Shown: positions 1,715 through 16,246 of the stretch, piece by piece
Layout of the letters: every line of letters starts with the position of its first letter
Position numbering within the stretch: the stretch's first letter is position 1
The notes under the pieces: model-generated
Database searches by the model: none
What the model was told of the DNA's origin: nothing
The model's input: the letters and a program-made list of their open reading frames with translations, nothing else
Source: a virus
DNA: 48,522 bases
Virus record (IMG/VR): IMGVR_UViG_3300021138_001895
Span: 1-48,522 of that record
Strand: one strand, 5' to 3'
Translations under genes and position numbers: made by a program

Positions 1715-4597
1715 CTAGGACGAGACATTAAGAAGTTTTTTAGTAGTATCATTTCCGTCTCGGAGATGGCTGATCATTTCGTCAAATTTACTCAAGAGTT
1801 CATTGTGTTTTTCATCATCGTTGCTATCACCGTTCAATAATTTATCAAATGCAGTTTTATTAGCAGCGGTTTGTTTGAGCATATTTTCTTCTTCTTTATC
1901 GTATTGCTTTTTCATTTCGGGATTGTCACGGGCCATTTTCCCAGCAACGTCTACCAGTGCTTGTATGGCATCCAGGGTCTTTTGATTTACATTTGTTTGT
2001 ACAGCGATTGAGTTGTTGCGCCCTGATGCCTCGTCCATTAAAAACTTACTAGTTGATCGCAGTTCAGCATACGATGCCATTTGCGCTTCCATGAACTTTT
2101 TGTCAGTGTCATCTGTAATTGGCATGTTTTTCATTGACGCAATACTTGCTTGTGCAAAAGAAATCAAATTATCTTTGCTATAAGTATTTGATTCCAACAT
2201 ATTTTGCATCGAGGAGTTGGACATATTTTTTACTGAATCAATACTGGATTGTGCCAATGTTGCAATACTGTCCTTGTCATTGGAGTTTAAATCAAACATG
2301 CCCTTTACTGTGGCAATACTGGATTGTGCCAATGTTGCAATACTGTCCTTGTCATTGGAGTTTAAATCAAACATGCCCTTTACTGTGGCAATACTGGATT
2401 GTGCCAATGACATTAGATCGTTTTTGTCAGACGATGTTTTATTGGTACTATTGTCAAAAATGTTTCGCATTGAAACAATACTGGACTCAGACAGTTTTGC
2501 AATGTCTGCTTGAGCATTGGTGATCAATTTCAAACTATTTTCCTGTTCCGATGTGACTTTTTCCAACAGTTTGGCTTGAGCATCATCTTTTTTACTACCC
2601 GAAATATCTTTTAGTGTCACTGGTATTGTTTTACCATCAGGCAACGGCACTGCTGCTTCGGGCCCGTCTTCGGCAAATATACCCGGTGTATTACTGATAC
2701 CGCCTTTACTATGTTGATTTTTTAATAAATTTTCAAAATATTTTCTATCGTTATCCGATAACGGGTGTTCTTTATCGGCTAGTGCTGCTTTGGCATTTTT
2801 CACTTCTTCTGAATCTAGTTGTGCTCGAGATCCTATTTCAGTGTTGCCAGCAGTAGTGGCCTTGGGTTTACTTGGGGCCAAGTCGGCTTTTTTACCACCC
2901 CCTATCAAGTCATCAATTGCTTTGAGACCTTTTGTAAACATTGCCACTGTTTGCTCAGTGGTGTATGAAATCAAACTGGCATATTTGTCAAGATGTTTGC
3001 CAACTTCAGTTTCCATTGCAACTGCTGCTTTTGTAGTAGCCTCAGTCACTCGAGCAAAACCTTGTTCAACACTGCCTGCACTCTTGGCCATGTCCATTTG
3101 TGCTGTTGCTGCCTTTTTAGAATTTTCTGCGGCCTCGGGATCAAGCTGGAACGATTTGAAAGCATTTTGCATTTGTGCCATGCCGCTAACAACTCCGTCC
3201 ACTGCCCCGCCGAACAATGCTGCTTGGTCTGTGGCATTTTCGCCATGATCTTTCATGGCCTTGCCAGCTTCGCCTAAGTTCTTTTGTGTGTTAACCACCA
3301 TGTCAGCATTGCCTTCAGACACTTGCCCGGCAGTTTTACGAATCATGTCCATGATGTCTTTGTTGCCGGCAATGATAGGATCAGTGACCGGCCCGCCCGC
3401 CATCACCTGTGTCAGTGCTTGTTGTAGTTTTGGACCCATCTCTGGCCCCATCGCCATCATTGTGCTGTATGCGTTTTTGTATGCTTCTTGTTGTTTGGAA
3501 TCCAATTTGCCCATCAATGCACCGCGCATGCTTTCCTGACGGGCTTTGTCCATTAACTTTTTGGCATCTTGCCCGGTAATGTCCGATATAACTTTTAGAT
3601 TAACCGCATAGTCCTTCATTTCTCGTTGCAGTTGTTCGGGGGCAATATTTTTCATGTCGCGTCCCGTGGCCTTGACCTGTGCCCCGTAACTGGCCAACAG
3701 TTCAGCTTGATCTTGATAGCTGTAGCCCAGAGCCAATAATTCGTCACGTGCAGAAACTGTGGCACTGCCAAACTTCTTGGTCATTGCGCTCATGCCGTTG
3801 GCTATCATTTTGGCACCATCGCCTTGTGTCAATCCTGCAGCTCTAATATCTTCAGAGCTTTTGGCAGTTGCATCCGACAACATCTTAAGACTGATGCCAG
3901 CATCGTTGGCCACTTGACGCATTTCATTCATACCACCAGCAAAACTTGCACCTTGCTTGGTGTAGCTGGCCAACGCTTCAGTGGACTTTTTAAATTCTTT
4001 TGCAAATACCTCATTGGCAGTTTTTGCCAATTGAGCTGCTAGATCCAGTGCAGCTTTGGCTGCTTTGTCCAGCCCCTCGGCGAATCCGCCAAGATATGGT
4101 ATTGACCCCAGTATTCCGGTACTTAAATCAACTGCGCCTTTAGCAGCAGTGTTTGTTGCATCTATAAATGTGCTGAGTTGTCCGGCTGCGGCTCCAATTG
4201 GATCTTGGGCCATTGCATCGTACTGCGTGGCCATTTGTGTGGCCAGGCTCAGTGCCGTTTTGCCTAGACTGCCAAAAGTGGTGGCCAGTGATGAGCCAAT
4301 GTGTTCCCACATTTCCGTAGATCGTTTGGCAGCAGCTGCTCGTTCGGCCTCGCGTTTTTTTTCTTCTTCAAGTTGTTTCTTTTCAACATCATTCAACTCT
4401 TTATGAGTTTTGTTAAAAAGTTTAAGAGCACGAATCTCGTCTTCTTGTGCCTTTTTCAAGGCAGCATTTTCTGCTGCCTTTTTATCTTTTTCAGACTTGG
4501 TTACTGCTGCCACCAACCTCAGCAATGTTTCTTCTGTGGCGAAATTTTCGGCTTCGATCTCGCCAATATTGGGAACTTTGATTTTTACTTTTGCCAC
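1715..4597 (-). CDS. Tail tape measure protein (gp29 role)
   Basis: This 960-aa protein has tape-measure architecture. A charged Lys/Glu-rich coiled coil covers roughly residues 30-95. A long Ala/Gly-rich helical and weakly hydrophobic body follows to about residue 560. Around residue 640 is the segment KGGISNTPGIFAEDGPEAAV, close to the GG..N.P.iF.E.GPEA.vPL motif seen in many tape measure proteins. After it come Ser/Asp/Asn-rich 25-27-residue repeats. Tape measure proteins set tail length and leave through the tube at injection. At about 1.5 angstrom per residue, 960 residues would suit a tail near 140 nm (inference). The start codon is GTG at 4597, giving MAKVKIKVPN; no strong ribosome binding site is visible. 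A late-promoter motif lies 32 bases upstream. It shares no evident sequence with T4 gp29, so the T4 equivalence is by role only. Confidence 0.85.
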   Translation of the reverse strand: MAKVKIKVPNIGEIEAENFATEETLLRLVAAVTKSEKDKKAAENAALKKAQEDEIRALKLFNKTHKELNDVEKKQLEEEKKREAERAAAAKRSTEMWEHIGSSLATTFGSLGKTALSLATQMATQYDAMAQDPIGAAAGQLSTFIDATNTAAKGAVDLSTGILGSIPYLGGFAEGLDKAAKAALDLAAQLAKTANEVFAKEFKKSTEALASYTKQGASFAGGMNEMRQVANDAGISLKMLSDATAKSSEDIRAAGLTQGDGAKMIANGMSAMTKKFGSATVSARDELLALGYSYQDQAELLASYGAQVKATGRDMKNIAPEQLQREMKDYAVNLKVISDITGQDAKKLMDKARQESMRGALMGKLDSKQQEAYKNAYSTMMAMGPEMGPKLQQALTQVMAGGPVTDPIIAGNKDIMDMIRKTAGQVSEGNADMVVNTQKNLGEAGKAMKDHGENATDQAALFGGAVDGVVSGMAQMQNAFKSFQLDPEAAENSKKAATAQMDMAKSAGSVEQGFARVTEATTKAAVAMETEVGKHLDKYASLISYTTEQTVAMFTKGLKAIDDLIGGGKKADLAPSKPKATTAGNTEIGSRAQLDSEEVKNAKAALADKEHPLSDNDRKYFENLLKNQHSKGGISNTPGIFAEDGPEAAVPLPDGKTIPVTLKDISGSKKDDAQAKLLEKVTSEQENSLKLITNAQADIAKLSESSIVSMRNIFDNSTNKTSSDKNDLMSLAQSSIATVKGMFDLNSNDKDSIATLAQSSIATVKGMFDLNSNDKDSIATLAQSSIDSVKNMSNSSMQNMLESNTYSKDNLISFAQASIASMKNMPITDDTDKKFMEAQMASYAELRSTSKFLMDEASGRNNSIAVQTNVNQKTLDAIQALVDVAGKMARDNPEMKKQYDKEEENMLKQTAANKTAFDKLLNGDSNDDEKHNELLSKFDEMISHLRDGNDTTKKLLNVSS
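2239..2409. repeat. Perfect 75-bp tandem repeat inside tape measure gene
   Basis: The unit beginning CAATACTGGATTGTGCCAAT (plus strand) starts at 2239, 2314 and 2389. The first two copies are identical over all 75 bases; the third matches for about 21 bases and then diverges. In protein it duplicates a 25-residue block containing SIATVKGMFDLNSNDKD. Diverged copies of the same block (QSSIDSVKNM, QASIASMKNM, ESSIVSMRNI) lie on both sides, so the array has grown by in-frame duplication. Confidence 0.95.
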
Positions 4598-6166: not shown

Positions 6167-6958
6167 TTAGACTGATAATTTTTTAAATGTCGAGGCCAAA
6201 AATTTGCCATAACGTTGATGACTTAATGGGCCAGGGTGTCGTTTGTCGTTTCCATAATCGATCATCATGGAAGCAAAACTTTGATATAGATTGAGCCAAA
6301 GGTTTTGTTGTATAGAGCCAGAGTTTTTGTAATCGTTGTGTATTTTGTTGTATAAGTTTTTTATTTGAGCATCGTCTCTGTGTTCAGAATTTAAAAGTTT
6401 ATTTGTATAGTTTGTTAGATTGGTTGGTATTGGGTCACTCACGGGATCAAAATAATTTTGATCCCATTGGCATAGATTATTTAAAAAATAAATTTTTGTA
6501 TTTTTAGAATCGGCGAGGCCTTTAAGAATATTAATGTACTTTACAAGATCCAATATATCATAATGAGTATTATGTACTAGTAAAAATTTATCTCCAAAAT
6601 CTTTTAAAAATTCTTTACTAAAAGAAATATCATTGCCATTGTGTTCTACTAGATGTGTACTTGTTGGCGAGATACTTCTACGCGATTCGTATTCTTCTAG
6701 TCCGGCCCAAAACACATGTCTTGGATAACTGGTCCAACCCACAAAAGCAAAATCATATTGTTTTTGTACCAGCTCTATACCGGTATCTAAAAAAATACGT
6801 AAATTGGAATTTCCGCCACCGCCTATGTTGTTTATCACTGCTTGATTGGTAAACAATTCTTTTGACAGTACGTTGGCATAGTGCAATTCGTGTGTCTTTT
6901 CATTTACAAGCCCGGTACCAGCAGCAAACGAACAACCTGAAAATAAAATATTAACCAT
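6167..6958 (-). CDS. SGNH/GDSL-like hydrolase
   Basis: A 263-aa protein with the landmarks of SGNH hydrolases: GCSFAAG at the N-terminus (nucleophile Ser10), GGGGNSN (Gly47-Asn50 region) and a C-terminal DKRHPGPLSHQRYG (Asp238, His241). These would supply the Ser, Gly, Asn and His/Asp of the active site. The family includes esterases, lipases and carbohydrate deacetylases; nothing here identifies the substrate. No signal peptide or membrane segment is visible, so it probably acts in the cytoplasm or on a modified polymer after lysis. It is the last gene of the minus-strand operon and overlaps the GIY-YIG gene by 8 bases. Two rows I counted by hand were about 27-30% GC, lower than gp46/gp47, which suggests a separate origin. 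Phage SGNH proteins have been proposed to act on glycans or on modified virion proteins; either is only a guess here. Confidence 0.75.
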   Translation of the reverse strand: MVNILFSGCSFAAGTGLVNEKTHELHYANVLSKELFTNQAVINNIGGGGNSNLRIFLDTGIELVQKQYDFAFVGWTSYPRHVFWAGLEEYESRRSISPTSTHLVEHNGNDISFSKEFLKDFGDKFLLVHNTHYDILDLVKYINILKGLADSKNTKIYFLNNLCQWDQNYFDPVSDPIPTNLTNYTNKLLNSEHRDDAQIKNLYNKIHNDYKNSGSIQQNLWLNLYQSFASMMIDYGNDKRHPGPLSHQRYGKFLASTFKKLSV

Positions 6959-7385
6959 TTAATTTATTTAATATATGCGATCCATGCACACGGACTGAAA
7001 TTTGTCCGTTGTAATATTCTGTACTTTCTAATACTCTATTGGTAAATTGTTCGCGGGCTTCAATATAACTACATTCTGATTTGCTTTGGCAATAATACAG
7101 TATTTCTCTAGTGAAGTTTTCTTTGCCCAATGTTTCAACATCTTTGTTTAATTCAATGTTTGATCCATAATATTCTTGCCAGTCGCTGTCTATTTTTGAT
7201 CTAATTTTCTTTTTCTTCTTGGTGCCGTTCTTTAACTTTACAGTCTTGTAGGTCGTTTTACTAAATTTTGCTAATTTTTTGCCTATGTACTTTTTGCCAG
7301 ATAGATTGTTGGTGATAAGATACACAAATCCCACACAATCTTCGGGTAGATCTTCTACAGGCGAGTTTTGATATATCCATTGCAT
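6951..7385 (-). CDS. GIY-YIG nuclease, SegE-like
   Basis: A 144-aa protein whose N-terminus carries GFVYLITN (residues 19-26) and KKYIGKK (31-37), the GIY and YIG strands of the GIY-YIG nuclease fold. A Lys-rich insertion (NGTKKKKKIRSK) follows, then SDWQEYYGS and a helix with YIEAREQF that could supply the catalytic Glu. It resembles the SegE-type GIY-YIG proteins scattered in T4-like phages, some of which are free-standing homing endonucleases. No DNA-binding extension is seen beyond the compact domain. It starts 18 bases after the radical SAM gene stop and overlaps the SGNH start. A TATAAT hexamer lies 7 bases before the ATG but has no good -35 partner. A homing role would explain transfer of the flanking AT-rich genes (inference). 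Confidence 0.8.
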   Translation of the reverse strand: MQWIYQNSPVEDLPEDCVGFVYLITNNLSGKKYIGKKLAKFSKTTYKTVKLKNGTKKKKKIRSKIDSDWQEYYGSNIELNKDVETLGKENFTREILYYCQSKSECSYIEAREQFTNRVLESTEYYNGQISVRVHGSHILNKLNG

Positions 7386-7403
7386 ACATGTAATTATACC
7401 TTG

Positions 7404-8408
7404 TTACCATGCAGTTGCATATTCTTGATTTACCAAGTTTTTGTTGCATTTTTGTTGACATTCTTGCCATTTGAGTGCCTTAAATTCTGTTTCCCAAAAA
7501 GGGTCGGCAATTACATCTGTTAAGGTCCTACGATGTAAATTGAATCGCTCGGCGATTATTTGCCACTCGCTATTGTGTGTGTATCTGTTAGCAACCCAGC
7601 AACAAGGAAATAGTCTTCCGCTGGCATTAATGTAAACACCTTTGTTTCCTATTTCACACAAGGGTTTTACGTTGTTTTGTACTGTAACTGTGTTATACAG
7701 TTGAATATTGATATTTGAAATTTTGCTTGCTCGATCAGCAAAGTCAGTGACCTCACGTTCAAATCTATGACTACCGCTTACAAATTGCTGATCGGGTTCC
7801 AGTGGATCATTGGCACCGTAACCGGGATAGATACTGCCAAATTTGGTGCTTTTGGTCAATTGAAACATATTCATATCTAATGCTGCAGCATAGTTTTTCA
7901 TTTGTTCTAAATTGTTTTGATTAAAACCAAATGCAATCGCGGCCCATACCAATTGACATTTAGACGCAGATCTCAAAGCAGTTATACCTTGAACTATACT
8001 GCTAAAATCGCTGTTCACACGATACTGGTTGTTGCTAAGTTCATCCCAGCCGTCAATGCTGAAGTGTACACTATCCTTATAGTCCAGTAACTGGCCCAAT
8101 TGGATCCACCAGCTTATTTTCTTATGACTACCATTGGTAACAATAACTATTTCAACCGGTTTGACGCTTTTGATATATTCAATCACTGGAATTAAATCGT
8201 GTGCGTATATGGGATCTCCATCGTCGCCGCAGAAGGTGATCTTTTCTATATTGGACAATATAAATTGGGGTGTAAAATTTCGTTTGAAAAACTCTAGATC
8301 CAGTTCAGTATTGATCAAACTGTTGGGAACTTCCTGTCTAGCACAACGCGGGCATTTTAACGTACACTTGCTGCTAATCTCGATATGAAAATGCCAAGTT
8401 GCCAACAT
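7404..8408 (-). CDS. Radical SAM protein with SPASM/twitch-like C-terminus
   Basis: A 334-aa protein with the radical SAM cluster motif CTLKCPRC (Cys15, Cys19, Cys22), which binds the [4Fe-4S] cluster that cleaves S-adenosylmethionine. FCGDDGDPIYAHD follows in the place of the usual GGEP strand, and the C-terminal Cys set (LCEIGNKG, LFPCCWV, ECQQKCNK) fits a SPASM-type auxiliary cluster. Such enzymes often modify peptides, and some act on sugars or nucleotides. The substrate cannot be deduced. The gene starts on the stop codon of gp46 (TAATG), which indicates translational coupling. It is distinct from the second radical SAM gene at 13984-15375 in size and motif order. The GIY-YIG gene follows after 18 bases. 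Confidence 0.85.
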   Translation of the reverse strand: MLATWHFHIEISSKCTLKCPRCARQEVPNSLINTELDLEFFKRNFTPQFILSNIEKITFCGDDGDPIYAHDLIPVIEYIKSVKPVEIVIVTNGSHKKISWWIQLGQLLDYKDSVHFSIDGWDELSNNQYRVNSDFSSIVQGITALRSASKCQLVWAAIAFGFNQNNLEQMKNYAAALDMNMFQLTKSTKFGSIYPGYGANDPLEPDQQFVSGSHRFEREVTDFADRASKISNINIQLYNTVTVQNNVKPLCEIGNKGVYINASGRLFPCCWVANRYTHNSEWQIIAERFNLHRRTLTDVIADPFWETEFKALKWQECQQKCNKNLVNQEYATAW

Positions 8409-10177
8409 TATGCCATCTCGACGTCGGTGTTGTAACTGGTATAGCCGTTCTCTTTGACCACATGTAATGTGTTATTAACACGACCCGCCAGTTCATCTTT
8501 ATGTGAAACTAACCAAATACTTTTATTACTGTCTCTACTCATTTTCTTAAGTATACTCAGTGCATTTTCCACGCCCGAGCTGTCCATGCCCGAATCCACT
8601 AACTCATCAATGAATAATAAATTAATGGGCTGATATAAACTTTCCCATACATCACGAAACGCCCAACTCAAACTCAATATAAGTCTGTTACGCTCGCCTC
8701 GACTCAAGTTATCAAAGTCTAATTCACGACCCAACTCGCTAATGCTTACAGTCAAATCGTTTTGAAATTTAACAGTATGCGGAAGACCAATACGATCTAG
8801 ATACTGTCCCAGTCTGGCATTTAGATAACTTAGGTTTTGATCAATAATACGTTTGCGGATAAAACTGTCTTTGTTGGTCAATAGTTTGTACAAAAACTCT
8901 TGATGTTGTCGTATTCTATCAAGCTCGTTCATTAAGTCATAATTGACATTCTCAAGAGCCTGCTCGCTCATTTCTTGTATTTGTTCGTAGTAGGGATCTG
9001 CTTCTTGTTGCTTGGCAGTTAATTGTGCAAGTACACTGCCTAAACTGCTGCGATGCTCAAATGCATCCGCTTCGTTGTTATAGTAAACTTGGGCACGCTC
9101 ATCTAGCTCGCCTAATGCGTTCAACGCTTCTGTATTCTCAAGACATTGTGTATGGGCTGCGAGTGCATTGAGAGCAGTGTCACTGATTTGCCGTTGCTTG
9201 TCCGCTAACATTTGCTCATGATTGTCGTCGTGTATGCCTTGACCACAAGCCGGACATTGGTGATTTGTTAAAGCCTCCATCTCGGCCCTAAGACGAGCTA
9301 ACACTTTGTCTTCTCGAGCTTGATCACGTTCGTTTTGTGTAATATAACCTTTAATTCGATCTATCTCTGCTTTCTTTTTGTTGTACACTGAAAGGGTTTG
9401 ATGTGCAACTAACTCGGCCTCGATGTCCAATGCGTTAAGCTCGTCAAATGCCGTCTGCAATTTGGCAATATCTTCGTCGTGTTTCCTTTGCCATAACGTT
9501 TGTCGTCGTCGCAAATTGTCTATTTGTTCTTGTATACGTGTGTTGGCATCAGTGACTGCTTTGATTCTAAACTCTTCTTGAGTAATAGCATCCCGAGTAG
9601 CTTTGGTCTGTTCTTTTAATAATTCAGCTTTTTCGCTTAGTAGTGTAATACCCAACAACTGTTCAATAATAGTGCGTTGATCGTTGGCTTTTAATGCCAG
9701 AAACGGTTCAGTATAGGTGTTCAAGGCCACAATGTGCTTGAACATATCATGTGTCATGCCCAACATACGTTCGATCTCGGCCTGTGTTTCTCGACTATCG
9801 CCTTGTGCCTCGTCGGTGATTTCTCGTTCGGTGTCGTTAACCCAAAACTTCATTGTATTGGGTTTACGCCCGCGTTCGATCCTATAGTTAAAACCGTCCT
9901 TTTCAAAATCAATAGTCACCATCATGCCTTTGACGTTGGTTTTATTGATCAAGTTATCTTTTTTGATATTGGTTAATGCGTTACCATATAGTGCATAACT
10001 CAGTGCATTGATGATTGTGGTCTTGCCGGTGCCGTTTCTTGCACCCGAGTCGTCACCGCCTAGGTCCAAGTTCTCGCCCAACACCAAGGTCAAATCATTG
10101 CGATCAAAACTGACAGCTTGTGTGGTATTGCCCACACTCATGAAATTTTTAACAGTTAAATCTTTTATTTTGAACAT
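8408..10177 (-). CDS. 46: Recombination endonuclease subunit gp46 (Rad50/SbcC-like ATPase)
   Basis: A 589-aa SMC-like ATPase. Walker A is GARNGTGKTT (residues 45-54). The coiled-coil arms meet at a zinc hook, CPACGQGIHDDNH (Cys308 and Cys311). The signature motif LSRGE is at 491-495, Walker B INLLFIDEL follows at about 518-526, and the switch His lies in VSHKDE near 559. With gp47 it forms the Mre11/Rad50-type complex that resects DNA ends for recombination-dependent replication and degrades host DNA. In T4, gp47 and gp46 are close neighbours; here the symporter and ligase-like genes separate them. The gene begins 31 bases after the stop of the ligase-like gene, has its own promoter-like sequence, and shares its stop with the next start (TAATG). 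Rows counted by hand are near 47-52% GC. Confidence 0.95.
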   Translation of the reverse strand: MFKIKDLTVKNFMSVGNTTQAVSFDRNDLTLVLGENLDLGGDDSGARNGTGKTTIINALSYALYGNALTNIKKDNLINKTNVKGMMVTIDFEKDGFNYRIERGRKPNTMKFWVNDTEREITDEAQGDSRETQAEIERMLGMTHDMFKHIVALNTYTEPFLALKANDQRTIIEQLLGITLLSEKAELLKEQTKATRDAITQEEFRIKAVTDANTRIQEQIDNLRRRQTLWQRKHDEDIAKLQTAFDELNALDIEAELVAHQTLSVYNKKKAEIDRIKGYITQNERDQAREDKVLARLRAEMEALTNHQCPACGQGIHDDNHEQMLADKQRQISDTALNALAAHTQCLENTEALNALGELDERAQVYYNNEADAFEHRSSLGSVLAQLTAKQQEADPYYEQIQEMSEQALENVNYDLMNELDRIRQHQEFLYKLLTNKDSFIRKRIIDQNLSYLNARLGQYLDRIGLPHTVKFQNDLTVSISELGRELDFDNLSRGERNRLILSLSWAFRDVWESLYQPINLLFIDELVDSGMDSSGVENALSILKKMSRDSNKSIWLVSHKDELAGRVNNTLHVVKENGYTSYNTDVEMA

Positions 10178-10182
10178 AGTCT

Positions 10183-10212
10183 ATTATATGCTAGTGTACG
10201 GTACAAAGTCAA
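10183..10212 (-). promoter_or_regulatory. Sigma70-type promoter candidate for gp46
   Basis: On the minus strand TTGACT (10212-10207) and TATAAT (10188-10183) are 18 bases apart, close to the bacterial housekeeping consensus. The -10 box ends only 5 bases before the gp46 ATG, so transcription would begin at or next to the start codon. It overlaps the last codon of the upstream ligase-like gene. An internal promoter here would let gp46 be made without the inserted cassette. Confidence 0.45.
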
Positions 10213-11603
10213 TCTAGCAGTTGCCTAAAATGTGCTCGAAGCAACGGCATGGAAACTTTGAATGATGCATTGAACTGATCAAACGGCACTTGATCCAATA
10301 TGCTCACTTGAATTTTTGTTTCGTATGATTTATTCAATTGCTGATTTATTTTTTCCATCACATCTGGCTCAATTGGAGCGTAGACTGCAATGAATATTTT
10401 TTGATATTCTTCGTCAATGACGGTGACATAATCTTGTTTAATAAACAAACTAACCACTTGGTTAATGTCTTCGGGCCTAATAAAAATATCGTTTATTTTG
10501 TAATCCTTGGTTCTACCATAGAAATAATAATTGCCGTCTTTGAGCTCAAATTTATCATTTAATTCTACAGTTTTTTTAAATTCGTTGTTGGTGATCAAAA
10601 CAGACTCGGGCATGATCTGTAGGTCAAAGTAATCATCTAGTAACGGACCGTAATTGGTTACATCAAAAGTTTCTTCCTGTGTGCCTTGATTTATTTCTGG
10701 ACCCAGTATCAAGTTACCAATATCGGATGATCCGTAAACGCCAAGAATACGATTGATATTTTTTTCTTTACAAATTGGAATCCATTCTTTTTGCAATCGA
10801 GTCAACACAAGCAAATCAAACGAGTGATTCATTTTGTGCAACGATTTAATTATTCCGTCCACTGAAGAAAATATCATGACTTTGTTAATTTTTTTATCTC
10901 TCAATTGATCTGATAATTCCAACAACGAATCCTCGTTGTAGTTGAAATTATAATGATATTTGCATGCCATCAATGTAGGTAGTAAAAATAAGTCAAGTAC
11001 ACACCCATGACTCAATTGCCGACAATGCATGATATTGTCTTCTTCAACAAGTGCCAGTCTAGCAATGGCTCTAATAGAACTTGAATACAACCACTCGTGA
11101 CTGTGTGTTGATACTTTGGGCACTCCAGTGGTGCCACTACTGGTAGTGTTGATGGCTACTGTAGTTTTTTTGGCAAAAATTGTGCTTTTGATTTTGTCCC
11201 AGAGCGATGAATCTTGCACCACATACGAAAAGAATATATTCATGTCGTCGACATGTTTGAAACATGTTCTAGCATGTTCGACGGTTTCTGGCCAAATTTC
11301 AAATTGCACAACATCAAACATCGCCAACTTGAGATTTTTATACAGTGATTGTCGATAAACGGATTTTTGTGCAATCACTTGATCAACTACAGACAGTGCA
11401 ACACCCAATTCCAAACAAGCAAACACAAATGACAGATAAAGTGGATCTGTACGAGAAGTAAAAGTACCAACACTGTCGCCGGGACGTAATCCGTACTTTT
11501 CCCACATCAACACTTTCCAAAAATCTATCATGTCACACAACTCGTTGTATGACTTACCGTCATACACCAATTCTTTGTTTAAAATTTCTCTAGTGAGAAT
11601 CAT
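10209..11603 (-). CDS. ANL-superfamily adenylate-forming enzyme (acyl-CoA synthetase/ligase-like)
   Basis: A 464-aa protein with the core motifs of AMP-forming ligases. The ATP loop is TTSSGTTGVPK (residues 153-163; family TSGTTGxPK). The A5 region is GVYGSSDIGN (288-297), with Asp where Glu is usual. The hinge region is FYGRTKDYKIND (361-372), with the conserved Arg364. A C-terminal SFKVSMPLLR puts Lys449 where the A10 catalytic Lys is expected, although the usual Gly before it is replaced by Phe. The family activates carboxylates as acyl-AMP and then passes them to CoA, a carrier protein or another acceptor; which applies here is unknown. It is shorter than acetyl-CoA synthetase (about 650 aa) and nearer to small aryl/acyl ligases. 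Its ATG overlaps the symporter stop (ATGA), so the two are translationally coupled. Sampled GC is about 35%, below gp46 and gp47. Such a gene is not a standard T4-like gene. Confidence 0.85.
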   Translation of the reverse strand: MILTREILNKELVYDGKSYNELCDMIDFWKVLMWEKYGLRPGDSVGTFTSRTDPLYLSFVFACLELGVALSVVDQVIAQKSVYRQSLYKNLKLAMFDVVQFEIWPETVEHARTCFKHVDDMNIFFSYVVQDSSLWDKIKSTIFAKKTTVAINTTSSGTTGVPKVSTHSHEWLYSSSIRAIARLALVEEDNIMHCRQLSHGCVLDLFLLPTLMACKYHYNFNYNEDSLLELSDQLRDKKINKVMIFSSVDGIIKSLHKMNHSFDLLVLTRLQKEWIPICKEKNINRILGVYGSSDIGNLILGPEINQGTQEETFDVTNYGPLLDDYFDLQIMPESVLITNNEFKKTVELNDKFELKDGNYYFYGRTKDYKINDIFIRPEDINQVVSLFIKQDYVTVIDEEYQKIFIAVYAPIEPDVMEKINQQLNKSYETKIQVSILDQVPFDQFNASFKVSMPLLRAHFRQLLD

Positions 11604-12943
11604 TTAATTCTACCTCGAATAAATTGGCTTGCTAGTACAGGAATAGCAGAAACGCCAATAATTATCAAATAGCCGTAAACAGCCCAAACTGGCCCAAGTT
11701 TATTGACTTGACTATAGTAGTTGAATGCTCCGCCAATCGCTAAAGATAATAAAAATGCCAATAAGTAATATCGATCTTTAACATAAATGCCAAATGCCAT
11801 ACAAGCAGTCAACGTCATTGATGCTGTGCGGTACACGCTAAACACCATTAGTGGAAGCAATAGATCAATTTCAAATAGACTCAACAAATAAGCAATGGTA
11901 ATGGGCAAAAACAAAGCCCATTGAAAAGTTTTAATATTATCTCTTTTCAAGATATTTCTACTGATAATCAATGCAGATGCAACTGCTGCCGAATCCATAT
12001 TACTGGTAGCAATAGATATTGCAAACAACGCAAACAACAACTGTATCCATATATCAGAGTTACTGACTAACGAACTTACTGCAAGATCGCGATTGTCAAG
12101 TCCGGGAGCAGCAAACATACCAACCAATCCAACAATCAACAGTGCACACGGAGTAATTATTGATGCTGACCAAAAGGTTTTTTTCACAGATTGGATATCT
12201 TTACAGGCCAACGACCGACTCAATATTTCCTGATTAGCCGATACCCCGCTTGTTAGTATAAACATAAACAACAATCCTGGAAACAACAACAATGATGAAT
12301 CGGCAGGCTTGTTTACATTTGTTATAAAATTTTCAATATTGTAATGAGAAAAGGCATAAATGCCAAAGACAATCAGTGTGGTAGCCATCAATATCAATTG
12401 ATATCCATCGGTCTTGATGCTGGTGAACAACCCACCTCGCCAAATGTACATGATTACACCAATGCACATGATTCCAGTGAATACAGCACTGGCTTCGGGA
12501 CTGAAATCCCAACTTTTTAACACATATTTAATACCCAGTAAATTGACAAATATATGATATATAGGTGCAAGAAATGATTGGATTTTGTAAATATTACCAG
12601 CAGCAGTTCCAATTGATGATTCGGCAATATCAATCAAGGTGACGGATTGGGTGTATTTTTCTTTAAATCGTTGCACCAACTGTGAATAAATTAAAAAACT
12701 CAAACAATAGGCAGACACAAACACAAGCATGGACCAAATGCCAAATTTATATCCAAATCCCCCGGCCTGCAAAAATGCAGGAATTATTAAAAACGCACTG
12801 GAAATACTGAGACTGATTCGCAACCAGTCGAATTGATTTCTAGAAGTGGTCATAAGTTCATAATCGGGCACGGCCTTGGCCCCGACCCAATTATAGTATG
12901 CTAGTAAACATATTAATATTCCAAATATATAAAATTGATTCAT
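11600..12943 (-). CDS. Sodium:solute symporter (SSS)-family transporter
   Basis: A 447-aa, very hydrophobic protein with about 12 candidate membrane helices through its length. Two SSS-family hallmarks are visible. GVSANQEILSRSLACKD matches the loop that reads sQ..vqR.laakd in the family. ATSNMDSAAVASALIISRNI matches the STaDS..l..s segment, whose Ser/Thr residues line the sodium site. RGGLFTSIKTDGYQ also fits the family's GG...tD..Q stretch. Members import acetate, proline, pantothenate, sugars and other solutes with sodium. The substrate is not readable, although acetate-type SSS permeases are classically encoded beside an AMP-forming acetyl-CoA synthetase. It starts on the stop codon of gp47 (TAATG) and its own stop overlaps the ligase-like ATG. 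It would act in the host inner membrane. Sampled rows are 33-42% GC. A complete symporter in a phage is unusual. Confidence 0.87.
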   Translation of the reverse strand: MNQFYIFGILICLLAYYNWVGAKAVPDYELMTTSRNQFDWLRISLSISSAFLIIPAFLQAGGFGYKFGIWSMLVFVSAYCLSFLIYSQLVQRFKEKYTQSVTLIDIAESSIGTAAGNIYKIQSFLAPIYHIFVNLLGIKYVLKSWDFSPEASAVFTGIMCIGVIMYIWRGGLFTSIKTDGYQLILMATTLIVFGIYAFSHYNIENFITNVNKPADSSLLLFPGLLFMFILTSGVSANQEILSRSLACKDIQSVKKTFWSASIITPCALLIVGLVGMFAAPGLDNRDLAVSSLVSNSDIWIQLLFALFAISIATSNMDSAAVASALIISRNILKRDNIKTFQWALFLPITIAYLLSLFEIDLLLPLMVFSVYRTASMTLTACMAFGIYVKDRYYLLAFLLSLAIGGAFNYYSQVNKLGPVWAVYGYLIIIGVSAIPVLASQFIRGRIK

Positions 12944-13959
12944 TACAAATTCCTATAAAGATCCAGCAACAAATTGGGATCATATTGTTTGCTATCTATG
13001 CTGGTGAGTTGACTATACACAATTTGATCCACGCTTTCAAACTCGATATTGCCACGTATCTCTTGATCAGTCATGGCAGTGTCTTTTGCCGGAATAAGAG
13101 TAATTTCTCTCAGCCCATAAGTATTGATAAAAGTTTCCTTGATAAAAGTTGATTCTTCATAACTGATATCCACATCCAAATTGACTCTGACATGCATGCC
13201 GGGACTGAGCATGGCCTCGGTATGATGCAACACATCACTGAGATTGAATACGCGATAACGTGGTTGGTCGGGCCAGGCATAGTACACTGGCTCTTGTGCC
13301 CACTCTAGTATGGTAAGGCCCCTATCATCGTCCCCGGCATCGGCGTAATTGTGTGGAAAGCAATTTCCAATATAAGTGATATTTTTTTGTGTTTGTCTTT
13401 TATGGAAGTGTCCAGTAAACACATGATCAAAATTGCTGAAGTGTTCGCGCCTCACTTCGCCATGCTCGGGCATGGCCACCATGGCGTTCATTAGGTATCC
13501 CGGCAGTTCAAAGTGCCCGAACATGTATCGTCCTTGTAGCCGAGGAATGCGTCGATGGTCATCACCACAGAGCCAAGGAGCGATAACCACATCACCACTG
13601 CTAAACCAATCATTACAAATTTGTACGTTGGGGAGATGCTTTGCCCACTCGACACTTTGCACATCACGCTTATCGCGATAATAGAGATCATGGTTGCCAG
13701 GAATAAAATAAACACGAGAAAAATTAGCATTGAGATGCTCCAAGGCTTGTAGGCTATAGCCCAAAGTAAGTATATTGATACTGGCTCGATTGTTGTGCCA
13801 GTCGCCCAAGAAGAAAGCAGTTTCGCAACCTTCCTCTCGGGCTTTAGCAGTTGCCCATCGAACAAAGTTCAAACAGTCCTCGTTATGTAATGTACTGTTT
13901 GACTTTAGGCCAAAATGTATATCAGTGAATAGTGCAGCTTTACGAAATAGGTTACTCAT
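12943..13959 (-). CDS. 47: Recombination endonuclease subunit gp47 (Mre11/SbcD-like nuclease)
   Basis: A 338-aa calcineurin-like phosphoesterase with all the metal-binding motifs in order: TDIHFG (Asp13, His15), GDWH (52-55), GNHD (88-91), FGHFE near 148 and GHFHKR (183-188). It is the nuclease half of the gp46/gp47 complex, which trims DNA ends for recombination and replication restart. The length matches T4 gp47 (339 aa). It begins 24 bases after the twitch radical SAM stop, and its stop overlaps the symporter ATG. In related phages gp46 follows closely; here 2.7 kb of cassette intervenes. One row counted by hand was 55% GC, in contrast with the following genes. Confidence 0.95.
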   Translation of the reverse strand: MSNLFRKAALFTDIHFGLKSNSTLHNEDCLNFVRWATAKAREEGCETAFFLGDWHNNRASINILTLGYSLQALEHLNANFSRVYFIPGNHDLYYRDKRDVQSVEWAKHLPNVQICNDWFSSGDVVIAPWLCGDDHRRIPRLQGRYMFGHFELPGYLMNAMVAMPEHGEVRREHFSNFDHVFTGHFHKRQTQKNITYIGNCFPHNYADAGDDDRGLTILEWAQEPVYYAWPDQPRYRVFNLSDVLHHTEAMLSPGMHVRVNLDVDISYEESTFIKETFINTYGLREITLIPAKDTAMTDQEIRGNIEFESVDQIVYSQLTSIDSKQYDPNLLLDLYRNL

Positions 13960-13965
13960 ATGTCA

Positions 13966-13994
13966 AGTATACACGATTTTAAATCAGTAATCAA
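13966..13994 (-). promoter_or_regulatory. Sigma70-type promoter candidate for gp47
   Basis: On the minus strand TTGATT (13994-13989) and TATACT (13971-13966) are 17 bases apart. As with gp46, the -10 box ends 6 bases before the ATG, which predicts a leaderless or nearly leaderless mRNA. The -35 overlaps the end of the upstream radical SAM gene. Confidence 0.4.
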
Positions 13995-15375
13995 TAATAT
14001 TGGCAAATTCTGAATGAGTCTCGGCAAAGTTTTGAGCCTGTTCTTGATCTGCTCTACGGATATATGTTTTTGCAACATCTGTGAGGTCTTTGCCGTTTTG
14101 GTTCATGTAGTCAACAATAGACAACAAACGACTGTGCCCTAGCAATTTTTTAGTGACAATTTTTTTTACATTGACCGATAGGTTATTAATTGCAAAATAA
14201 TCTGGGTCACTTAGCATGTTAAACGATGGCGGTTGACTAAAATTTTGAACATCGGCCCAACTCAAAAATTCTGGTAGATAGTAAACATTCAGTAGGCTCA
14301 CTGTGGGATACACATCAGTTTTGAATTTGGCGGAAGTTTTTGCATTGAATCGGGCAATGTTCTCGCATACTGTGTCCCATGACGCACCATTACGTTCCAG
14401 CTCAAATCTTTTGCCAATGTTGTCTATGCTAAAACTCAATTTGACTTCTTTAAAATGTTTCCAATAATCAAAAAACTTATTGGAGTAAACAGTACCGTTT
14501 GTGTTGTAGTCGAGACTGATGTTACCGGCTACTCCTAGATTTATCACAGCCTGTAAAAAATTAAAATGCATCTTGCTCATTAATGGCTCACCGCCGTAAA
14601 GATCTAAGTGAGTCAAGTTTTTGGAGATTGATAATAATTGCTCTTCAAATTGTTCAGAGTCGGCCCAACTAACAGATTCTTTTAGTTTTACAAATTGCTG
14701 ATGAGTTATTCTTTGGTGTGATAGTTGTTGTTCAGCCACTTTTATACTTGAATACCCGTTGCATATTCTGCAAGACAGGTTACAGGTATTGCCCAACTTC
14801 AAATCCAACATGTGAAGATTTTGAACGTTGTCTTGACTGTAGTCAATTTGATAGTAAAGATTTTTTAACTTATACTTGGCCAATTGACGCATGCTAGCCA
14901 CACCGGCTGATTCATTGTTCCAGCACTGGCTACATCCACCGGCATATTTGCCTTGCCTAAACTGCTCTCTAAGAGCAGTCATGGTATTGCCGTTGTAGTA
15001 TGATTCTAACGAAACATATTTGATATTTGCATCACCTCGGCCTTTGTAAAGACAACAGGGACTTAGGTCACCTTGATTCGAAATTGTTGAATTTATCCAT
15101 GGATAAATGCAATGTGACTCTTGTGGCACAAAATCCAATTCAAACAATGGCAAAGTTGTGTGGTGCTCAAAAACCACAAAGAATTCGGGAATATCAACAA
15201 AATCCAACAACTCTTGTACAATTGTCACTGATGACTCGGGGTTATGCACCAAGTAAATTCTATCGCAATCCTCAAAGACATCTTTCTTCAATGACAGAAT
15301 TTTTTTATATAAAACATTTAATTTGGTGTATTCGTGTAAAAAAATTCTGTCAATGACGTTGATATTATTCGTCAT
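13984..15375 (-). CDS. Twitch domain-containing radical SAM protein
   Basis: About 463 residues from the preferred start MTNNINVID. An N-terminal domain with a HNPESSV segment leads to a twitch-type Cys cluster: HCIYPW (Cys89), SPCCLY (107-108) and GGCSQCW (148, 151). Then comes the radical SAM motif CNLSCRIC (Cys198, 202, 205) and LYGGEP (259-264). This order, with the auxiliary cluster before the radical SAM core, fits the N-terminal-twitch radical SAM proteins frequent in marine T4-like phages; their substrate is unknown to me. The frame is open to an ATG at 15444, but the extra 23 residues lie inside gp55 in another frame. The ATG at 15375 overlaps gp55 by only 11 bases and has a purine-rich upstream GGCGGT. 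It belongs to the gp55-gp47 operon. Confidence 0.87.
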   Translation of the reverse strand: MTNNINVIDRIFLHEYTKLNVLYKKILSLKKDVFEDCDRIYLVHNPESSVTIVQELLDFVDIPEFFVVFEHHTTLPLFELDFVPQESHCIYPWINSTISNQGDLSPCCLYKGRGDANIKYVSLESYYNGNTMTALREQFRQGKYAGGCSQCWNNESAGVASMRQLAKYKLKNLYYQIDYSQDNVQNLHMLDLKLGNTCNLSCRICNGYSSIKVAEQQLSHQRITHQQFVKLKESVSWADSEQFEEQLLSISKNLTHLDLYGGEPLMSKMHFNFLQAVINLGVAGNISLDYNTNGTVYSNKFFDYWKHFKEVKLSFSIDNIGKRFELERNGASWDTVCENIARFNAKTSAKFKTDVYPTVSLLNVYYLPEFLSWADVQNFSQPPSFNMLSDPDYFAINNLSVNVKKIVTKKLLGHSRLLSIVDYMNQNGKDLTDVAKTYIRRADQEQAQNFAETHSEFANIIDY

Positions 15376-16246
15376 AACCGCCATCACCGCCACCAGCGTA
15401 GCTACTGCCCATGCCCTGTCTAGTATAACTGGGATTGAGTCCATTCATTTCTAGTATATCGTCACGTATGTTTTGATTGCGTTTTTCAATATTCAAAACT
15501 CGAGTAAAGCTGTTGGTGACTGCTGCAGTATAATAGGCAAATGGGTTGGCACTTTTTGATTCGTCAAATCGTAAGCCAATGTATGTGAGTTGTAACAATG
15601 CCTGCGACCTCATTTCGTCATTGTAGGTGTATCCGCGCCAGTTGCTGCGAGTAGCATAACGTTCACACAGTTTCATAAACATATGAGCTAGTTTTTTGGT
15701 CATGTTGCCGTGCATTTTTTGAAATTCGCCAGTTTCTAAATCACCTTGCCAGTGACTCTTTCCCACTAATACCGGATTGTTGTCGCCATCAACCGTAAAG
15801 TGTTGAAATGGCGGAAAGTTCACTTTGACGTATTTGGTGTGAGTCAAATCCAGTTCGTCATATTCGGTCAGTAACGGATCTTCATCATCCTCAATTTCCA
15901 AAGCTGACATACGAGCTTTTTTGGTTTTTGCATCGTCTACTGGAATATGATCCCAGGTCATTACCCTAAAAACTACATCAGTAGCAGCAACGTCCTTGAG
16001 CTTGATCTCGAACTCGTCCAATTTACGCTTGATTCCCTCGGCAATGCTGGCATCATACGCCACTTTGGCCAAGCGTTCAGCACGTAATCGTCTAGCTTCC
16101 AAAATGTTTTTCTTGTTGATCTTGCCAATATCGGGCAAGATCATGTCGTAATCGGCATATTCGGGCCGGGTAAAACTACAATATGTAGTTTTACTTTTGT
16201 GAATTTCTTTCAGTATATCTTTGTTGTTGAGGTAATTGTGCTTCAC
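15365..16246 (-). CDS. 55: Late-transcription sigma factor gp55
   Basis: A 293-aa protein whose C-terminal half carries the gp55 core: NDEMRSQALLQL, LRFDESKSANPFAYYTAAVT and NSFTRVLNIEKRNQNIRDDI. gp55 binds host RNA polymerase core and recognises the TATAAATA-type late promoters. T4 gp55 is 185 aa; here an N-terminal extension of about 110 residues, rich in Lys/Glu and Asp, precedes the core. The start is GTG at 16246, with AGGA six bases upstream. It heads the nine-gene minus-strand operon and has both a sigma70-type promoter candidate and a late motif upstream, so it may be made early and reinforce itself late (inference). The tail of the protein is a Gly/Ser/Tyr-rich stretch that overlaps the radical SAM start. 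Confidence 0.92.
   Translation of the reverse strand: MKHNYLNNKDILKEIHKSKTTYCSFTRPEYADYDMILPDIGKINKKNILEARRLRAERLAKVAYDASIAEGIKRKLDEFEIKLKDVAATDVVFRVMTWDHIPVDDAKTKKARMSALEIEDDEDPLLTEYDELDLTHTKYVKVNFPPFQHFTVDGDNNPVLVGKSHWQGDLETGEFQKMHGNMTKKLAHMFMKLCERYATRSNWRGYTYNDEMRSQALLQLTYIGLRFDESKSANPFAYYTAAVTNSFTRVLNIEKRNQNIRDDILEMNGLNPSYTRQGMGSSYAGGGDGGYDE

Follow-up and report, generated by a model that had tools for sequence, protein, structure and literature searches.

A gp47-gp46 cassette of a freshwater jumbo phage as candidate module for uptake and adenylation of a small carboxylate

Why would a jumbo phage encode a membrane carrier and an adenylate-forming enzyme between the two subunits of its recombination nuclease? 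The question is raised by the virus record IMGVR_UViG_3300021138_001895 (48,522 bases, analyzed over its whole length and referred to as the window in the following), in which two complete minus-strand open reading frames (ORFs) are set between gp47 and gp46. The first of these encodes an SSS-like membrane carrier of 447 amino acids (11600..12943) and the second an ANL (AMP-binding) adenylate-forming enzyme of 464 amino acids (10209..11603). The window virus is a PA5oct-like freshwater jumbo myovirus, with near relatives including contigs of 354 and 329 kb. Its gp47/SbcD-like subunit (12943..13959, minus strand; PHROG_100, E = 5.4e-59) and its gp46/SbcC-like subunit (8408..10177, minus strand; PHROG_77, E = 5.6e-103) show about 48 and 50% identity, respectively, to their homologues in PA5oct-group jumbo phages. 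The stop codon of gp47 overlaps the carrier start in TAATG and the carrier stop overlaps the ANL start in ATGA, exactly as had been claimed in an earlier sequence-only reading of the window. Both cassette starts have a Shine-Dalgarno-like sequence (AGGA for the carrier, GAGG for ANL), and 31 bp separate ANL from gp46. From the same reading's assignment of the cassette to an SSS symporter plus an ANL enzyme, the two complete ORFs and, by Pfam and fold, the ANL part are borne out, whereas the SSS part comes down to remote homology. Our answer, held with about even confidence, is that the cassette represents a phage auxiliary-metabolism module for importing and then adenylating a small, perhaps aromatic, carboxylate, with the carrier replacing the TctC protein found in related phages.

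This answer is supported mainly by the repeated pairing of a capture protein with an AMP-forming enzyme. ANL relatives recur in the gp47-gp46 junction of other phages (loci designated L in the following), mostly adjoining a TctC/Bug periplasmic carboxylate-binding protein with a signal-peptide-like start (PF03401 at E = 3.6e-30 in L017), and the window ANL is homologous to these TctC-paired enzymes (tblastn E = 8e-60 with L082). In total, 12 ANL-TctC pairs in both orders were found, with ANL-TctC in L082, L083, L084 and L189, TctC-ANL in L086, L088, L183 and L192, ANL-TctC-ANL in L017, a further pair in L186, and ANL-TctC located outside the gp47-gp46 junction in L179 and L207. ANL without TctC is present in L003/L019, L093, L129 and L167. 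Five of the eight distinct TctC loci added by a TctC search (at least 33% identity, complete ORF; not independent lineages) have an adjacent ANL, compared to about 4 of 105 unselected junctions, a comparison to be read in the light of a search seeded with TctC proteins adjoining ANL genes. Searches with a relative's ANL and TctC returned one partial match each, in unannotated faecal phage records.

TctC is also associated with genes for the alpha and beta subunits of an AndAc/NagG-like Rieske ring-hydroxylating oxygenase, in L180 (6942-8679) and L182 (3852-5589) as well as in L186, a 337-kb contig where ANL, TctC and both oxygenase subunits (6942-8680) lie together between gp47 and gp46. The phage alpha subunit matches the AndAc anthranilate dioxygenase model at E = 3.8e-112, below the equivalog cut-off, shares about 56% identity with plasmid-encoded subunits of NagG-type salicylate 5-hydroxylase and has its Rieske and iron ligands intact. 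Judged by such neighbors in related phages, the substrates would point, if anywhere, to aromatic carboxylates. Many of the plasmid-borne relatives of these TctC and oxygenase proteins belong to Cupriavidus, Variovorax and Acidovorax, making a betaproteobacterial source of this cargo plausible. An uptake-then-activation function had already been suggested from the window sequence by reference to acetate permease and acetyl-CoA synthetase; this idea gains from the related ANLs adjoining TctC and from the TctC-oxygenase loci, while the acetate (ActP-Acs) parallel is an analogy only.

Besides ANL, SGGxDS-signature PP-loop proteins adjoin TctC in L108 (gp47-gp46 junction), L194, L196, L198 and L199. 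These ATP pyrophosphatase-like proteins, most of which match no Pfam model, could in principle represent a second candidate AMP-forming class beside TctC; in L194 and L199, three PP-loop genes are found around one or two TctC genes. In L196, an NAD synthetase gene (2899-3711; PF02540, 3.7e-48) lies about 2.3 kb upstream of the phage TctC. As Bug27 and Bug69 bind nicotinate or quinolinate, a link of this TctC to NAD precursors is possible. Possible amidinotransferase/deiminase-like proteins of about 370-393 amino acids are encoded near ANL/TctC or in the same junction in L038, L039, L187 and L092, a label whose sole profile support is a weak ADI match in L092.

ANL enzymes adenylate carboxylates, and the window protein belongs to this family by sequence profile and fold. 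It matches the Pfam AMP-binding model PF00501 at E = 7.8e-10, with 38.5 bits versus a curated cut-off of 29.9, and a structure model built from 13 phage sequences (predicted local distance difference test score, pLDDT, of 81.6) shows the ANL fold. Among the PDB fold matches are MenE (2.7e-20), the anthranilate-CoA ligase AuaEII (1.7e-19) and many aryl- and acyl-activating enzymes. Deducing the substrate from these ranks was rejected as unspecific, as they differ little among ANL enzymes. Aligned with E. coli EntE, MenE and Acs, the window ANL retains the P-loop (SSGTTGVPK), A7 Asp, A8 Arg and A10 Lys. In A5, the canonical Glu, a Mg2+ ligand, is conservatively replaced by Asp (T, S or H in TctC-associated relatives), and Phe precedes the A10 Lys; both peculiarities had been recognized correctly from the sequence alone, and the ATP loop proved to be kept. 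The closest viral structural match is BFVD A0A6J5L571 (E = 1.6e-38, 23% identity), and no match covering most of the protein was obtained in annotated phage genomes. Profile searches were run with a 7-row subset, the 17-row alignment being too diverse. A pattern scan of cellular genomes for ANL did not give any match and, hence, named no bacterial donor. In related phages, dN/dS values of 0.09-0.13 for ANL and 0.03-0.09 for TctC demonstrate purifying selection on these relatives, the window pair itself being without a close enough relative for such an estimate.

The carrier shows 11 hydrophobic segments in a transmembrane scan and is matched almost over its full length (residues 35-440) by PHROG_20720 at E = 4.3e-5, a profile positive in 9 of 10 control genomes where the SSS Pfam model is positive. 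In hhalign comparisons with four SSS proteins, PutP, ActP and PanF among them, it scores 39-40, while none of 100 block shuffles exceeds 25.8 and none of four control proteins exceeds 20.1; its identity to SSS proteins is about 15-18%. On the strength of this remote homology, we regard the carrier as a very divergent SSS protein with putative symport activity. Close relatives were not found in viral collections, genome collections or annotated phages, and plasmids gave only weak partial matches, one of these being an annotated SSS protein. A degenerate SSS motif scan retrieved a single contig, an unrelated one. In the surveyed gp47-gp46 junctions, no strongly hydrophobic cargo other than the carrier was present.

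A comparison of junctions bears on how the cassette came to lie at this site. The gp47-gp46 junction is a variable cargo hotspot of PA5oct-like jumbo phages. Of 112 distinct junctions surveyed in related viral contigs, 43 have a gap of not more than 60 bp, i.e., no cargo, and the cargo of the others changes (31 families in 126 ORFs). Among 109 non-redundant cargo proteins, taken from contigs chosen solely by gp46 or gp47, there are 25 radical SAM, 11 DUF6071, 6 AMP-binding, 4 sulfotransferase and 2 TctC proteins. Moreover, cargo identity exceeds that of the flanking genes, as L019 and L093 share 92% identity in ANL versus 61% in gp47 and 63% in gp46, and L088 and L183 share 82% in ANL and 87% in TctC versus 69% in gp47; hence, cassettes move between phages at this site. 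The view of the locus as an inserted cassette thus stands on the junction survey, whereas composition gives no sign of a recent arrival. The GC contrast counted by hand (33-42% in the cassette, 47-55% in gp46/gp47) was not borne out, the actual values being 36.9% for SSS, 36.2% for ANL, 41.5% for gp46, 43.6% for gp47 and 40.5% for the window. Codon usage of the cassette is ordinary (z of 2.3 and 1.8), with gp46 and gp47 themselves deviating more strongly from the structural-gene pool (5.4 and 6.4). Composition as an indicator of recent transfer was therefore rejected.

In the proposed mechanism, a small carboxylate, perhaps an aromatic one, would enter the infected cell through the SSS-like carrier in its inner membrane, and ANL would use ATP for turning this carboxylate into an acyl-adenylate. 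By the probable conversion of the latter to a CoA ester or a different acyl conjugate, the substrate would be channeled into host metabolism, to the presumed benefit of the phage. Via the TAATG and ATGA overlaps, carrier and ANL would be co-expressed with gp47, while gp46 would keep its own promoter. Variants of the module may employ TctC/Bug or an SSS carrier for capture, ANL or a PP-loop protein as AMP-forming part and sometimes a Rieske oxygenase. In a broader and more tentative generalization, which we would not put quite on an even footing, jumbo phages may use interchangeable parts for capturing carboxylates from the environment, aromatic acids probably among them, and for adenylating these during infection, with the cassettes being traded at junctions flanking the recombination genes and SegE perhaps assisting in this.

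Besides the seeding of the TctC search, several points weigh against an uptake-and-adenylation module in the window. The activities of all module members are predictions. In the window ANL, the A8 Gly lining the pantetheine tunnel, variable in relatives, is replaced by Asp; this Gly is important for CoA transfer in Acs and, consequently, CoA transfer by the window enzyme is doubtful. In some ANL relatives (L003, L093), even the P-loop Lys is lost. The window ANL, with at most 31% identity, lies on a long branch of the ANL tree outside the TctC-associated clade, and since this position is not fixed, shared ancestry within that clade is not claimed. The carrier did not give any match in Pfam, NCBIfam or PDB sequences, with PF00474 failing to reach E ≤ 1 even when the search was restricted to one genome (controls positive), and its single-sequence fold model was discarded at a pLDDT of 41. 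On a weak alignment of its Na2 site, Ser is kept, but Thr is changed to Asn, the residue corresponding to PutP Asp55 to Phe, and others are changed as well. Finally, the scans made retrieved the SSS-ANL pair only once, in the window, and with the carrier in the place of TctC the window itself has neither TctC nor oxygenase, so that its substrate class is deduced from the neighbors in related phages.

Some of these points can be read in favor of a role in building rather than feeding. The acyl-adenylate, or an aminoacyl counterpart, might be passed to a non-CoA acceptor for making or modifying a surface polymer, a tail or a small molecule, with the carrier only feeding the precursor and ANL acting together with SGNH/DUF6071, radical SAM, sulfotransferase and sugar-nucleotide enzymes from the same cargo sites. 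The loss of A8 Gly would fit such a chemistry, as would the predominance of radical SAM proteins, DUF6071 and sulfotransferases in the junction cargo counted above, the DUF6071-like genes directly before ANL in L082-L084 and the SGNH-like gene close to the cassette (6167-6958, minus strand; a label read from the sequence, with no family matched). However, the genes adjoining ANL did not include any for a carrier protein, an acyltransferase or a polymerase, and the neighbor found repeatedly is the uptake protein TctC, beside which a degradative-type Rieske oxygenase is encoded in three loci. We consider the building role unlikely, albeit deserving serious attention.

Slightly less probable, in our view, is that SSS and ANL are passengers, acquired separately by a promiscuous gp47-gp46 junction and having no joint function. 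A site with 31 families among 126 junction ORFs, the solitary ANL genes in L003/L019, L093, L129 and L167 and the restriction of SSS to the window are in line with this explanation; yet TctC and ANL are paired in either order and across several phage lineages, and this, together with the translational overlap of SSS and ANL and the purifying selection on related ANL genes, argues for parts working together. The module might also remove or capture an inhibitory or signaling carboxylate during infection, for example one of the salicylate or anthranilate type, and thereby control the host instead of feeding on the substrate. The AndAc/NagG-like oxygenases in the modules of relatives and AuaEII among the best ANL fold matches may hint at this, but the fold ranks are too alike for reading specificity and the window is devoid of an oxygenase, and we deem host control improbable. 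An uptake-and-adenylation module remains our preferred reading of the cassette.

The surrounding genes are in minus-strand order gp55, twitch-domain radical SAM, gp47, SSS-like carrier, ANL, gp46, radical SAM, SegE-like endonuclease and SGNH-like gene. The gp55-gp47 junction holds the twitch-domain radical SAM protein (13984..15444; NF033640, E = 1.6e-91) and the gp46-segE junction a radical SAM/SPASM protein (7404..8408; PF04055, E = 8.1e-7) which is variable among relatives. Proteins of these two types, radical SAM/SPASM and twitch-domain, are found more often than any other cargo at the gp55-gp47, gp47-gp46 and gp46-segE junctions of relatives, with no substrate or precursor gene being evident for them at the three junctions. 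The SegE-like GIY-YIG endonuclease (6951..7385, minus strand; PF19835, E = 1.6e-33) is conserved downstream of gp46 (139 of 168 loci) and a possible driver of flanking-cargo exchange. It also matches PHROG_447, whose label, NAD synthetase, is probably wrong. In another phage group (L095-L099), two ANL-like ORFs of 427 and about 320 amino acids follow a SegE-like gene head to tail, possibly representing a split or duplicated enzyme. At the downstream end of the cassette, a sigma70-like promoter (TTGACT-18-TATAAT, 11 of 12 positions; 10183..10212, minus strand) is placed to serve gp46, and sites with at least 10 of 12 positions were found upstream of gp46 in 32 of 118 related junctions versus about 3% in shuffles. 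The near-consensus -10 hexamer often ends only 5-8 nt before the gp46 start, both in the window, where no Shine-Dalgarno sequence is evident, and in related loci, and would thus leave the gp46 transcript with little or no leader. The T4-type late promoter TATAAATA is absent from the window.

Known phage metabolic genes mostly serve photosynthesis, nucleotide and phosphate metabolism or represent a few single enzymes, and a published description of the module was not found in the subset of open-access papers searched. If the preferred reading is true, large freshwater phages would reshape the carbon sources used by infected cells through uptake and activation, some with aromatic-acid oxygenases, and the locus would offer a testable substrate prediction as well as a definite place for the exchange of metabolic cassettes between phages. 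Phage ANL proteins are already in databases, such as the AMP-dependent synthetase/ligase of an uncultured Caudovirales member (A0A6J5L571), for which neither a described function nor a transporter pairing was found. With the MenE/aryl-CoA ligase branch, the window ANL shares fold and most catalytic motifs, but identity in the best fold matches is about 15%, A5 Glu and A8 Gly are missing, and the C-terminal Lys of the phage enzymes follows Phe or Arg instead of Gly; the phage ANLs would form a new divergent branch with altered catalytic motifs. Carboxylates are the usual ligands of TctC-family proteins, many of which are orphans without a membrane partner encoded nearby (PMC5812351). In the tph operon of Comamonas, the gene of the binding protein TphC is located beside the terephthalate dioxygenase genes and apart from those of its membrane partners (PMC8556258), an arrangement resembling L180, L182 and L186. 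In contrast to that operon, many phage loci carry ANL, just the two oxygenase subunits are encoded where an oxygenase is present, and a complete SSS-like carrier takes the place of TctC in the window. In this respect, the window resembles the ActP-YjcH-Acs acetate scavenging locus of E. coli, where likewise an SSS carrier is encoded beside an ANL enzyme for uptake followed by AMP-forming activation, but differs from it in being phage-borne, in the strong divergence of both proteins, the lack of YjcH, the altered A5 and A8 motifs and an ANL with fold matches nearer to MenE and aryl-acid enzymes.

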